Positions 11,681-62,829 of a stretch of 64,000 nt of DNA are shown here, in pieces (position 1 is the stretch's first letter; every line of letters begins with the position of its first letter). The position numbers and the translations under genes were made by a program. The notes under the pieces were generated by a model that saw only the letters and a list, made by a program, of their open reading frames with translations, searched no databases and was not told the origin of the DNA. Origin of the DNA: Haloarchaeobius iranensis (lineage in GTDB: Archaea; Halobacteriota; Halobacteria; Halobacteriales; Natrialbaceae); contig NZ_FNIA01000001.1 of NCBI RefSeq assembly GCF_900103505.1, positions 62,001 to 126,000 on the forward strand, written 5' to 3'.

Positions 11681-12108
11681 ATCAGCCGGCCGGCGCGAGC
11701 CAATCCGCACGAGGGACGAGGAGCGTGGTTCGAGAGAGCGGAGCTCTCTCGTCATTGCCGGACTACGTCCGGCAGGCAGCCAGAAATCATGGATTTCTGG
11801 CTACATCACGAAAATCTCCGATTTTCGAACGACAGCGCAGCGAGCACCGCAGGACTGGGGACGTCTGAGGTGCGGTGCGATTGCGGTCGGGTGTCCCCGT
11901 GAGCGAGCCTGCGAGCGAACGGGGGCTCGTCGGACCGCCGGTCCGACGGTGGGGCTGAAAGGGGCGAGCTTCTCGGCGAACCCCGGCGAAGCAAGGACCG
12001 GAACGGAGTGAGGACCGCAGCGAGTCGCGGGAGCCGAGAAGCTCGGGGCTTTCTGGCTGTTCGTGATACCAGCTATTCTCGTCGATGAAGGGGCTTTCTG
12101 GCCGTTCG
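11681..12108 (+). repeat. Intergenic hairpin element, copy 1
   Basis: Fills the gap between the MATE gene and the helicase. Blocks shared with copies 2 and 3, in order: a segment like GAGCCATCCGCGCGAGGGAT (11697-11716, diverged); CTGGGGACG then TGAGGTGCGGTGCG (11854-11880); CTGAAAGGGG (11955-11964); and GGGGCTTTCTGGCTGTT (12045-12061). AAAG (11958-11961), GGG, a 13-base arm (11965-11977), a loop, the perfectly complementary arm (12033-12045), GGG and CTTT (12049-12052) form one long hairpin with a symmetric G-rich internal loop. A second GGGGCTTTCTGGC tail follows at 12090-12102, shared with copy 2. It includes the five-hairpin array at 11731-11948. No protein is supported. Confidence 0.8.
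11731..11948. repeat. Array of five triloop hairpins
   Basis: Five perfect inverted repeats, each with a three-base loop: 11731-11751 (9-base arms, loop GGA), 11757-11773 (7, TAC), 11778-11802 (11, ATG), 11809-11827 (8, TCC) and 11928-11948 (9, GCC). The arms are unrelated in sequence but the geometry is constant. They lie inside element copy 1; copy 3 contains two more of the same shape. Confidence 0.85.
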
Positions 12109-12226
12109 TCACCGGACCAGAGAAACAGGAATCGAGCCGTCCACGACACGAGATAACACACACCAGTACCACTTCCGGTCCGCTACGGAAACGCCTTTGA
12201 CCACCCGGCCCCCGGACACACACAGA

Positions 12227-24434: not shown

Positions 24435-24674
24435 ATGGCTGCCGACATGAGTCCGGGCGGAGGCTCGTCCGGTCCGATGAAGTACGCGAAGATGCTCGGG
24501 ATCTCCGGCGCTCTCGGGTTCCTCTTCGTCCTCGCAGGTATCGGAATCATCGCAATCGAGGGGTCGCTCATCCTCGCCGCCGGCTTCGCGCTCGTCGTCG
24601 CGGGGCTCGGCCTGCTGCTCAAGGCGCTCGTGAGCAACGCGCTCGGGATGCTCGGGATGGGCGGGATGTTCTAG
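24435..24674 (+). CDS. Small membrane protein, DUF7470-like
   Basis: 79 residues with two hydrophobic segments (ISGALGFLFVLAGIGIIAIE and LILAAGFALVVAGLGLLLKA) and a Gly/Met tail. It resembles a small haloarchaeal membrane family I know as DUF7470; no function is known. It follows the lipoprotein by 67 bases on the same strand. Confidence 0.65.
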   Translation: MAADMSPGGGSSGPMKYAKMLGISGALGFLFVLAGIGIIAIEGSLILAAGFALVVAGLGLLLKALVSNALGMLGMGGMF

Positions 24675-24718
24675 CGGTTTTCGAGCGGTTCTGCGACGAC
24701 TACTGGACTGCCGACAAC

Positions 24719-24873
24719 ACCTCGAAAGCCCCCGCCGTCTCGGCTCCCGCGACTGGCGAGACTCCGCCGTGGTCTCGCTGCGCTCGCTCCGAACCACGCA
24801 CCGCGCCCCTCCCGGCTGGTCCGGGAACGTCGCGACCGGTTCCTCGGCCGCGGTGTTTACACTGTATGTAAAC
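24719..24873 (-). repeat. Intergenic hairpin element, degenerate relative
   Basis: Read on the minus strand: an inverted repeat GTTTAC-N7-GTAAAC (24855-24873), then CAGCCGGGAGGGGCGCGGTG, then GCCGAGAC leading into GGCGGGGGCTTTCGAGG (around 24719-24740). These correspond in order to the GTTTAC box, the GGCTGGGGAGG/GGTGCGG block and the GGGGCTTTCTGG tail of the complete copies, but the 5' AAAGGGG arm is lost and pairing is only partial. It sits between convergent genes. The rest of this 300-base gap shows nothing else. Confidence 0.5.
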
Positions 24874-24974
24874 TTTCGGTGCGAGGAGCGGGGCTATCGA
24901 GGTGGATTCGAGTCCCCGGCGGACACCGGAGCGGGGACAGCCACTGACAGCACGATTCCCGCCACCCAGACGGG

Positions 24975-26957
24975 TTAGAACGCGTTGCTGCCGGCCTCGT
25001 CGGCGCGGTGCTCGCTGATGAGGCGGTCGACCATCTCCGATTTCTGGTCCTTCTTGCGCTCCGCGGCGCGGTCCGCCCAGTCGTCGATGACGGCCTCGAC
25101 GTCGTCTTCGCGGGCGACGGCGAGCTCGTCGACCTCCTGCATCGCCACGTCGTCGGCGGGGCCGACGGGAACCTCGTGCTCGAACAGCACCTCGTCGGCG
25201 ACGTCCGAGAGCCCGCCCTCCTTGAGGACGACGCGGGGGTCGTGGTCGACGAGCTTCTCGGCGGTCGACCGACCCGCGCCGGAGGCGTCGCGCAGGTAGA
25301 CCACGTCGTCGGGTGCGAGCCCGTAGTTGTCGTGGGCGTCGTCGATGGCGTCCCTGGTGAACTTGTCGACGGGTTTGACCGGGACGAGCCCGCGTTTCTT
25401 CTCCTCGACGTCGGCGAAGTTGGAGTGGTCGAGCTTCCAGAGCTCCTTCAGCCGGGCGAGCTTGCCCTCCAGCGCCTCGATTGTCTCCTCGCGGTCCGCG
25501 ACGTCGCGTTCGAGCGCGTCGTTCCGGCGCTCCAGCCGGGTGACCGTGCGGCGTTCGCGGGCCTCGCGACGTTCCTCGCGGCGGGCATCGGAGAGCTCCG
25601 ACTCCAGGTCGTCGATGCGCTCGTCCTTCTCGTCGACGGTGTCCTGCAGGTCGTCGACGTGGTCCTGCAGGCGCTCGACCTGCCGTTCGAGGTCGCGGAT
25701 GCGCTTCTCCTCGGCGGTCAGCTCGCGCGGGTCGTGCTCGTGCTCCTCGGGGTCCTCCTCGTCCTCCTCCACGAGGTCGTCGACGACGGCCTCGACGCTC
25801 CCGTCACCGCCGAGCACGCGCTCGATGACGACGCCCCGGTCGAGCGTCGGCGGCGTCTTCCGGGCGATGCGCTCGAACTGGTCCGCGTGGTCGTCGAAGG
25901 CAAAGAGCGCGGCGGCGAGGGCGTCGCGCTCGTGGTCGTTGTCGTAGCCCTCCTCGCGGGTCCGGTGTTGCTTCTCGTCGACGGGGAGGTCGGAAGCGGG
26001 GACCCACGGCGCGGCGTCGAAGCTCCGGCGGACCTTCTCGACGGTCTCCGGCATCGGCTCCACGTCGGCCGCGACGATGACGGGCCGCCCGCGCTCGATT
26101 ATCCACTCGATGACCGCGGCGGTGTCGGCGGTGCGCGTCGAGAGCACGTCGTGGACCTGTCCGTCGAGCGAGACGACCGCGACCGCCGTGGTGGTGCCGG
26201 GGTCCATCCCGACGATGACGTGGTCGCGGCGCTTGGCCAGCGGCTCGAACTCGATGCCGTCGCGGCGCTCCCGTTCGATCTCGACCCGCGTGTCGCCCGA
26301 GCGGCCGCGGGAGACGGGGATGTCGGCCGGGTGGGCGTCGACGGTGAAGACGGCGTTGGCGTAGCCGCCGTACTTCTCGGTCGGGTCCATCTCGTAGTCG
26401 AGCCCGGCGTCGTCGAGCGCCGAGGCGACCTCCCGGGCGCGGGCCCTGACGTTGCCGTGGATGCGCCGGGTGTAGCGGTCCTGGCTCCAGCCGCCGCTAC
26501 CGGTCGAGCGGCCTCGGGACACCTTCACGGTCGTCGTGTCGGTGAAGGCGCTCACCTCGTAGCCGACGTTGGCGGCGGCGAGGCGGGCGGCGGCCTCGGC
26601 CTCCTGCATGGGGTCCTTGCCGTACGGGACGCCGTGGCGGGAGGCGACGCGGGAGAGGGGTTCGGGCTGTTCGTCGCCCGTGACCTGTACGAGCCGTGTC
26701 TCGTCCGGCAGGCTGCCGAGGAAGTGGACGAGGGCGTCCTTGTCCTCGGCGAGTTCGTACATGTTGTCCGTGGCGACGATGGTCGGCGCCTCGTCGTCGA
26801 TGCGGCGGCGGAGCTTCCGGTAGGTGACGACGTCGCGCTCGAGGGATTCGCCGTCGAACACGACGAGCGCGTAGGAGGGGGCGTCCCCCCGGACGTCCCC
26901 GCTCTGGATGTCGACGCCGAACACCACCGCGTCGAGGGCCGTGGTACGGGCGCTCAC
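24975..26957 (-). CDS. DUF460 (COG2433) RNase H-fold protein with coiled coil
   Basis: 660 residues. The N-terminal part has a first ribonuclease-H-like module (VVFGVDIQSGD) and a second at VIVGMDPGTTTAVAVVSLDG, with acidic residues placed as in RuvC/YqgF nucleases. A predicted coiled coil of about 130 residues begins near ELTAEEKRIRDLERQVERL, followed by a C-terminal domain (GLVPVKPVDKFTRDAI). The GTG at 26957 is chosen because a TATA-like TTTATAC (26981-26987, minus) is 27 bases upstream. Role unknown; a nucleic-acid processing role is inferred from the fold. Confidence 0.82.
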   Translation of the reverse strand: MSARTTALDAVVFGVDIQSGDVRGDAPSYALVVFDGESLERDVVTYRKLRRRIDDEAPTIVATDNMYELAEDKDALVHFLGSLPDETRLVQVTGDEQPEPLSRVASRHGVPYGKDPMQEAEAAARLAAANVGYEVSAFTDTTTVKVSRGRSTGSGGWSQDRYTRRIHGNVRARAREVASALDDAGLDYEMDPTEKYGGYANAVFTVDAHPADIPVSRGRSGDTRVEIERERRDGIEFEPLAKRRDHVIVGMDPGTTTAVAVVSLDGQVHDVLSTRTADTAAVIEWIIERGRPVIVAADVEPMPETVEKVRRSFDAAPWVPASDLPVDEKQHRTREEGYDNDHERDALAAALFAFDDHADQFERIARKTPPTLDRGVVIERVLGGDGSVEAVVDDLVEEDEEDPEEHEHDPRELTAEEKRIRDLERQVERLQDHVDDLQDTVDEKDERIDDLESELSDARREERREARERRTVTRLERRNDALERDVADREETIEALEGKLARLKELWKLDHSNFADVEEKKRGLVPVKPVDKFTRDAIDDAHDNYGLAPDDVVYLRDASGAGRSTAEKLVDHDPRVVLKEGGLSDVADEVLFEHEVPVGPADDVAMQEVDELAVAREDDVEAVIDDWADRAAERKKDQKSEMVDRLISEHRADEAGSNAF

Positions 26958-44767: not shown

Positions 44768-44842
44768 GGGTTGCGCTACGGTCGCCACCGGAAAAAAGAG
44801 TCCGTCGGGCGTCGGAACTCGGCGGACAACCTCGGCTCCAGA

Positions 44843-45120
44843 GTTTACAACGATTGTAACCTTTGGCCCGCGATGATGGCCATCCAGCCGGGTGGCGCGC
44901 GGCTGGCGAGACGGGCGAGCGCAGTGAGCCCGTCGAGCCATCCGCGCGAGGGATGAGCGAGGGAGCCTGCGACCGAGCGAAGAGGCTGGGGAGGGGTGAG
45001 GTGCGGTGCGGTTGCTGGGTGGGACTGAAAGGGGCGAGTCGAAGGAGTCGAGCGACTCGGGGCTTTCTGGCTGTTCTCAGTACCAGCTACTCACGTCGAT
45101 GAAGGGGCTTTCTGGCTGTC
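44843..45120 (+). repeat. Intergenic hairpin element, copy 2
   Basis: In order: the inverted repeat GTTTACAACGATTGTAAC (44843-44860); GGCGCGCGGCTGG (44894-44906); GTCGAGCCATCCGCGCGAGG (44932-44951) followed by GATGAGCGA; GGCTGGGGAGG and GTGAGGTGCGGTGCGG (about 44984-45011); AAAG (45028-45031), GGG, arm CGAGTCG (45035-45041), loop, arm CGACTCG (45053-45059), GGG, CTTT (45063-45066); then GGCTGTTCTCAGTACCAGCT and a second GAAGGGGCTTTCTGGC tail. It lies between the diverging SpoIIM and mtaD genes. No protein is supported. Confidence 0.8.
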
Positions 45121-45218
45121 GTCGTCACCAGAGAGTTCCACGACCGCCCCAGTCACTCCTCACGAAACGACCCGTACCCGATGGAGTCTTGACGCACCCT
45201 GCGAAAAACACGCCCAAC

Positions 45219-62350: not shown

Positions 62351-62490
62351 CGGCGTCACGTTCCCGCTGTGCCCGGATAAACGCGACGGTCGGTCTTACG
62401 GACGTGTACTGGGGCGAGTGCGGCAGGGTTGAGGCCGCTGTCAATCCCCGGGACGAGCCGGCGTCGGCGAGAACAGCTGCTACCGCAAAC

Positions 62491-62829
62491 AACCAGAAAG
62501 CCCCTGCTCGCTCGACAGGCGAAACGACGCAAGCGACGCGAGAGCGAAGCTCTCGCTAGTTGAGCGCGTCGCGCTCAGGCACCGCAGGAACGAGGAGCGC
62601 AGCGAGTTGCAGCCGTCGAGCGAGCAGCCCCTTTCAGCCCCACCCACCGCACCCGCACCTCACGCCTCCCCAGCCGATTCGCTCACCTCCGCTGCGCGCC
62701 GGTTCGCTCATCCCTCGCGCGGATGGCTCGACGTGCTCCCTGCGGTCGCACCATCTCACCAGCCGCGCGCCGGTCGGCTGGTCAGGTGTCGAGGAAACTC
62801 GGGAGTTTACGATTTTTGTGAACTTCCTC
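62491..62829 (-). repeat. Intergenic hairpin element, copy 3
   Basis: Reversed relative to copies 1 and 2. Read on the minus strand: an inverted repeat GTTCACAAAAATCGTAAAC (62805-62823); GGCGCGCGGCTGG (about 62762-62774); GTCGAGCCATCCGCGCGAGG then GATGAGCGA; GGCTGGGGAGG with GTGAGGTGCGG; CTGAAAGGGG; a 13-base arm (62615-62627); a loop holding triloop hairpins at 62538-62556 (8-base arms) and 62561-62577 (7-base arms); the complementary arm (62504-62516); then GGGGCTTTCTGGTTGTT. The 13-base arm pairs perfectly but its sequence differs from copies 1 and 2. It fills the gap between priL and the MaoC gene. Confidence 0.8.

Follow-up and report, generated by a model that had tools for sequence, protein, structure and literature searches.

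What is the hairpin that recurs between genes in this stretch of the Haloarchaeobius iranensis genome, and why do its two arms differ from copy to copy and still pair within each copy? A sequence-only reading of the window (the whole stretch of 64,000 nucleotides that was analysed) had listed three places sharing a hairpin frame, and all three were found at the positions given. The arms are perfectly complementary, as claimed, with 13/13 positions paired in copy 1, 7/7 in copy 2, and 13/13 in copy 3, and the shared blocks upstream (GGCTGGGGAGG, GTGAGGTGCGG, and CTGAAAGGGG) and downstream (TTTCTGGCTGTT) are present as described. Two details of the frame had to be amended. The AAAG/CTTT flanks hold as a frame, but they can themselves pair and extend to CTGAAAG/CTTTC.G, and the GGG/GGG internal loop, said to be invariant, is only nearly so, since GAG, CGG, or GGA variants occur among the copies of the same genome; one lineage has GGCGA/GAGGG in its place. 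The full frame reads CTGAAAG-GGG-(13-nt arm)-loop-(13-nt arm)-GGG-CTTTC.GG, with GAAAGGGG/GGGCTTTC as the hairpin foot.

Copies in the window

Copy 1 of the element, on the plus strand at approximately 11685..12134, comprises a 5′ domain with inserted mini-hairpins, the hairpin module, and two 45-nt terminal units. The module (GAAAGGGG..GGGCTTTC, 11957..12053, plus strand) has its arms at 11965-11977 and 12033-12045, and covariance model R1 matches it with E=2e-28 (C53:73948-74064). The terminal inverted-repeat core GGGGCTTTCTGGCTGTT of the first unit lies at 12045..12061 (plus strand), and the second unit, at 12090..12106 on the same strand, is offset from it by exactly 45 nt. Copy 2 (44819..45137, plus strand) is an internally shortened version, whose hairpin (45035..45059, plus strand) has 7-bp arms at 45035-45041 and 45053-45059. 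It carries at 44843..44861 (plus strand) the palindrome GTTTACAACGATTGTAACC (consensus GTTTACAAnnnTTGTAAAC), a candidate bidirectional promoter or operator. Copy 3 lies on the minus strand at approximately 62488..62823, from the terminal core to the 5′ palindrome; its module (62496..62635, minus strand), with arms at 62615-62627 and 62504-62516, has a loop that is inverted relative to nearly all other copies. An additional, decayed copy 4, absent from the earlier list, occupies 24675..24975 of the minus strand and retains the 3′ arm and the terminal core GGGGCTTTCGAGGTGTT, and its opposite end bears an inverted, imperfect copy.

A smaller nested unit, GTGGTTCG-hairpin-CGTCATCACGA-hairpin-CGAACGACAGC, is seen within element loops at window:11724-11850 and at the loci L013, L016, L031, and L345. 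It occurs in two different haloarchaeal families and seems to be another small palindromic element that has inserted into the present one.

Family size and host range

Model R1 was made from 17 copies of the H. iranensis genome, aligned without structural guidance. In that genome (3.77 Mb) it gives 57 matches at E<=1, 32 of them below 1e-7, and the pattern GGGGCTTTCTGGCTGTT, with up to two mismatches, is found at 67 places, versus 0 for the reversed control, so the family is not due to chance. A covariance model search of haloarchaeal genomes, which the sequence-only reading had proposed as a check, was carried out with R1 and finds the family in 188 of the 243 genomes of the order. In a phylum-wide sample, which doubles as a negative control for the model, all 47 genomes with a match belong to the haloarchaeal order. 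Matches outside haloarchaea from an exact-pattern scan were rejected as chance because R1 finds none outside the order.

The fully scored genomes carry 11 to 148 copies each, the highest number being that of genome G191. Both G191 and G567 have more than 100 element matches, whereas their congeners have 28-67, which looks like a burst specific to this lineage. Among the named hosts are Haloarcula, Halosimplex, Natronococcus, Natrinema, Halorussus, Haladaptatus, and Halobellus, and haloarchaeal plasmids carry the family as well; no match was found in phage records or viral contigs. Rfam covariance models gave no match in the window and only chance-level weak matches at five loci, and no description of the hairpins was found in the literature searched. 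The family is thus large and apparently previously undescribed.

A conserved fold with a defined strand

In alignment A1 (MAFFT, the 17 copies of the same genome), 95.2% of the cells fall in standard pairs, versus 77.1% when shuffled, and pairing falls to 33-44% when the partner is slid by 1-3 columns. Two-sided change is found in 19 of the 33 pairs of A1 and, in alignment A2 (133 copies from other genomes), in 30 of the 33, although the A2 counts lean towards structure because this alignment was fitted to the covariance model, and the number of changes should not be taken for the number of events, since the copies are kin. The inner helices, like the arms, covary. A reading of A1 further reveals conservation at unpaired positions: GAN/GA internal loops are kept twice, as would suit tandem sheared G.A pairs, and so is an A.A mismatch within G[CG]ACC/GGA[GC]C. 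A second class of apical loop, CCCTATC../..GATATG, is accommodated in the same outer frame (L047, L106, L144, and L180). What is kept seems to be the folded shape rather than the letters.

The mismatches that remain in the arms are polar. Among 152 unique arm pairs, chosen without reference to wobble pairs, there are 50 G.U versus 12 A.C mismatches (p=1e-6), and 24 versus 8 at arm positions 2-11 (p=0.007). This excess of G.U points to the folding of one particular strand, which may be RNA or single-stranded DNA, as the polarity evidence does not separate the two; strand-biased mutation is a weaker alternative source of the bias. Loop orientation is also polar, with 160 forward and 4 inverted loops among 164 orientable copies. 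The four inverted ones, which include window copy 3, have 0 G.U and 2 A.C mismatches, as expected if the whole hairpin had been flipped.

Mobility and gene context

The site of copy 1 is filled in its own genome, G244, and G245, and empty in G246, G243, and G247. Copy 2 (44819-45137) has no counterpart in the sister species G245, at a clean, exact junction, nor in G246, where it falls within a slightly larger gap. Copy 4 is a 301-nt insertion flanked by a duplicated TAG (24672-24674 and 24976-24978), and its empty site, where two convergent genes overlap at CTAG, is intact in three sister species, G244, G245, and G246. This decayed copy is the one site at which a target duplication was seen; twin copies of genus g51 with clear terminal inverted repeats (TIRs) show no obvious duplication. 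Among six element sites in 301 kb of the H. iranensis genome, three are common to G245 and none to G246, and one G191 twin is absent from G103, G172, and G059. Copy number and positions vary greatly among sister species.

The copies are intergenic and stand in any orientation to genes. Sorted by the orientation of the flanking genes, as called by a simple codon-usage caller rather than taken from curated annotation, single copies number 25 (-+), 18 (++), 16 (--), and 9 (+-), a placement like that of all large gaps (54, 50, 45, and 27, respectively). Some copies, including all three window copies of the original list, lie 100-170 nt upstream of a start codon. The sequence that follows the stem is GGGCTTTCTGG, which has no T run.

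Architecture of the element

Among paired copies, the head-to-head arrangement of two inverted palindromic units dominates. In other genera the hairpins mostly form such pairs, with a distance of 42-48 nt and a central CCCACCC..GGGTGGG, and in the genus of H. iranensis the centre between paired hairpins is larger (289-320 nt). Elements of this genus bear a structured 5′ domain and the palindrome GTTTACAAnnnTTGTAAAC, all six matches of which in 301 kb of the window's contig adjoin an element. Within twins, left and right arms differ at 7.06 of 13 positions, compared with 6.28 for random pairs (p=0.006), and this unlikeness favours each hairpin folding on its own.

The element ends read GGGGCTTTCNNGNTGTT outward, and the five bases after GGGGCTTTC are the same at the left and right ends in 20 of 32 twins, versus 4.3 in shuffles. 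Elements of genus g51 are about 305 bp long, with TIRs GTGTTTAGTT..AACTAAACAC, and their terminal unit of 45 nt equals in length the tandem terminal unit of H. iranensis. At the loci L019:1122-1318, L011, and L043, the 45-nt terminal unit stands in tandem, in up to five near-identical copies per site. No gene was called inside the elements or between close head-to-head hairpins. Among the 67 end matches of the H. iranensis genome, no pair of ends flanks a gap the size of a transposase gene, and no transposon with these ends was found there. The inverted, matched ends and the gene-free body agree with the MITE kind of short TIR element.

Turnover of the arms

At orthologous filled sites (H. iranensis versus a G245 twin, G191 versus a G567 twin, and window copy 3 versus G245), both arms have been replaced, the replacement arms being perfectly or nearly perfectly paired and the flanks about 88-91% identical. 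Identical arm-loop-arm cassettes recur at other loci. As whole cassettes are swapped at orthologous sites, much of the covariation comes by blocks, and point compensation is its second, less frequent source. Point compensation is seen in copy 1, where arm position 5 shows one compensatory change (C-G to G-C) relative to the counterparts in G244 and G245; one change of C-G to U.G is present as well. Part of the maintained pairing comes from palindrome correction or gene conversion. At L278:13722-13750, which reads GGACTGAAAGGGGCTTTCTGGCTGTT, the hairpin has been lost cleanly and entirely between GAAAG and CTTTC.

Polar covariation, the GAN/GA loops, and compensatory change at an orthologous site support constraint on a folded single strand. 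In this respect, the earlier proposal of a selected structure with covarying stems is borne out, since the covariation is overwhelming, but a stand-alone intergenic RNA motif is too simple a reading, because the hairpin sits as a module in a mobile element and its paired cassettes turn over.

Nature of the element

A miniature non-autonomous mobile element is the class that best accommodates the mobility of the family, its matched ends, and its random placement between genes. The copies are probably haloarchaea-wide elements of this class, about 300-900 bp long and MITE/REPIN-like, with a structured single-strand hairpin as a module. Each contains one or two head-to-head hairpin modules of about 110 nt, enclosed by short inverted ends that often take the form of a 45-nt unit. 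The part of the hairpin in movement may be envisaged as follows. Each hairpin would act as a folded single strand whose polarity is fixed, either single-stranded DNA or an RNA that is transcribed from the centre outward. A trans-acting factor would read the shape, the unpaired G tracts, and the end sequence, not the letters of the arms, and this recognition would serve the copying or movement of the element. The cassettes would be shuffled by gene conversion, while selection for a foldable, correctly oriented hairpin would keep the arms complementary. More tentatively, the elements could form a new haloarchaea-specific mobile class, a transmissible unit recognised through its conserved folded single strand (a divergent pair of structured RNAs or single-stranded DNA hairpins), whose arms change by cassette exchange, whose lineages have different but internally matched ends and arms, and whose mobiliser is an enzyme not yet known.

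Several of these observations would also suit dispersed non-coding RNA genes, in which GTTTACAAnnnTTGTAAAC would serve as a bidirectional promoter and the two halves would be transcribed outward into a folded RNA with a cellular or selfish function. The bias for G.U over A.C, the fixed loop polarity, the repeated GAN/GA loops and A.A mismatch of A1, the structured 5′ domain, and a palindrome confined, in 301 kb, to the neighbourhood of elements all point that way. This reading is nevertheless rather unlikely, given that the hairpins of compact twins are separated by only about 45 nt, in which there is no promoter-like sequence, that copy number and positions differ greatly between sister species, and that single-stranded DNA, too, could show tandem GA pairs and an excess of G.T over A.C. 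It is less probable still that pairing is under no selection and arises from palindrome self-correction (template switching) and gene conversion between copies. Cassettes replaced whole within conserved flanks and shared by several loci are in line with such a process, as are the complete loss of one hairpin (L278:13722-13750) and the few inverted loops, which recombination between arms is expected to produce. Correction alone, on the other hand, predicts equal numbers of G.U and A.C, whereas the ratio is 50:12, and a loop polarity of 160:4 would not persist under it; the inner helices and unpaired motifs are conserved too, and 152 distinct arm pairs are known.

If the element were REPIN-like and a Y1 (RAYT/IS200-type) transposase moved it through its single-stranded hairpins, this would account for two inverted hairpins, an unpaired foot that is conserved, a random distribution outside genes, and frequent compensatory changes, all of them published features of REPINs (PMC3116915). 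Such movement is quite improbable here, as PF01797 has no match in genomes G004 and G140, which are both 99% complete and have at least 15 element matches, and membership among the REPINs fails on this transposase; conversely, G014, G051, and G064 have PF01797 and no element match, and outer TIRs and a 3-base duplication are foreign to REPINs. A cis-acting terminator, mRNA-stability element, or riboswitch would fit the intergenic location and the copies found 100-170 nt before a start codon, but scarcely deserves credence, with gene contexts that resemble all large gaps, a stem that is not followed by a T run, and the same sites empty in sister species. Riboswitch and terminator were rejected on gene context, since the copies lie in any orientation to genes.

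Relation to known repeats and significance

By analogy, the closest functional counterparts of the proposed miniature mobile elements would be REPINs, which consist of two inverted hairpin units with a conserved foot and compensatory changes (Bertels and Rainey 2011, PMC3116915). Like REPINs and REP sequences, the present elements are miniature and extragenic, combine two inverted hairpin units with a conserved unpaired foot, vary in their arms with compensatory changes, spread within genomes, and occur as single copies that look like remnants of doublets (PMC3116915). They differ in being archaeal and longer, with outer TIRs and 45-nt end units, in hairpins of about 110 nt with several helices and conserved internal loops, and in their independence of a Y1 transposase in the genome; moreover, the hairpin foot is GAAAGGGG/GGGCTTTC, not a GTAG/CGTC-type tag.

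With MITEs they share a size of 300-900 bp, a non-coding body, inverted ends, intergenic location, presence or absence between relatives, and, at one site, a 3-base duplication. In contrast to MITEs, no parent transposon with the same ends was found in the H. iranensis genome, and the body is no filler but a structured module, conserved order-wide while the ends vary by lineage. Among haloarchaeal repeats, the SMRs of Haloquadratum walsbyi resemble them in having inverted ends unrelated to transposons, an unexplained mobilisation, tens of copies, and palindrome-rich targets, which are paralleled here by small hairpins nested in loops (PMC3119063). SMR-A elements are about 110 bp long and insert into PATE palindromes (PMC3119063), whereas the present elements are longer and have a defined structured hairpin, a distinction drawn by description only. 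PATEs and IS605-type termini are likewise haloarchaeal, with palindromes near their ends, but PATEs lack inverted terminal repeats (PMC3119063), and the present elements have matching inverted ends.

Most haloarchaeal genomes carry a hairpin family, in up to about 150 copies, for which there is no Rfam model, and with the covariance model its copies can be masked, counted, and tested. The family is also a natural experiment in which a mobile element keeps its shape while its letters change. If the folded strand is RNA, it would represent a new class of transposon-borne RNA in haloarchaea; if it is single-stranded DNA, it would point to a new, structure-recognising route of mobilisation in archaea.

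Other repeats of the window

Two further repeats were observed in the window. Two neighbouring 60-nt repeats, 92% identical, lie within a predicted gene at window:48131-48250, and a direct repeat of 119 nt, 78% identical and with a spacing of 279 nt, is found at window:38354-38751.
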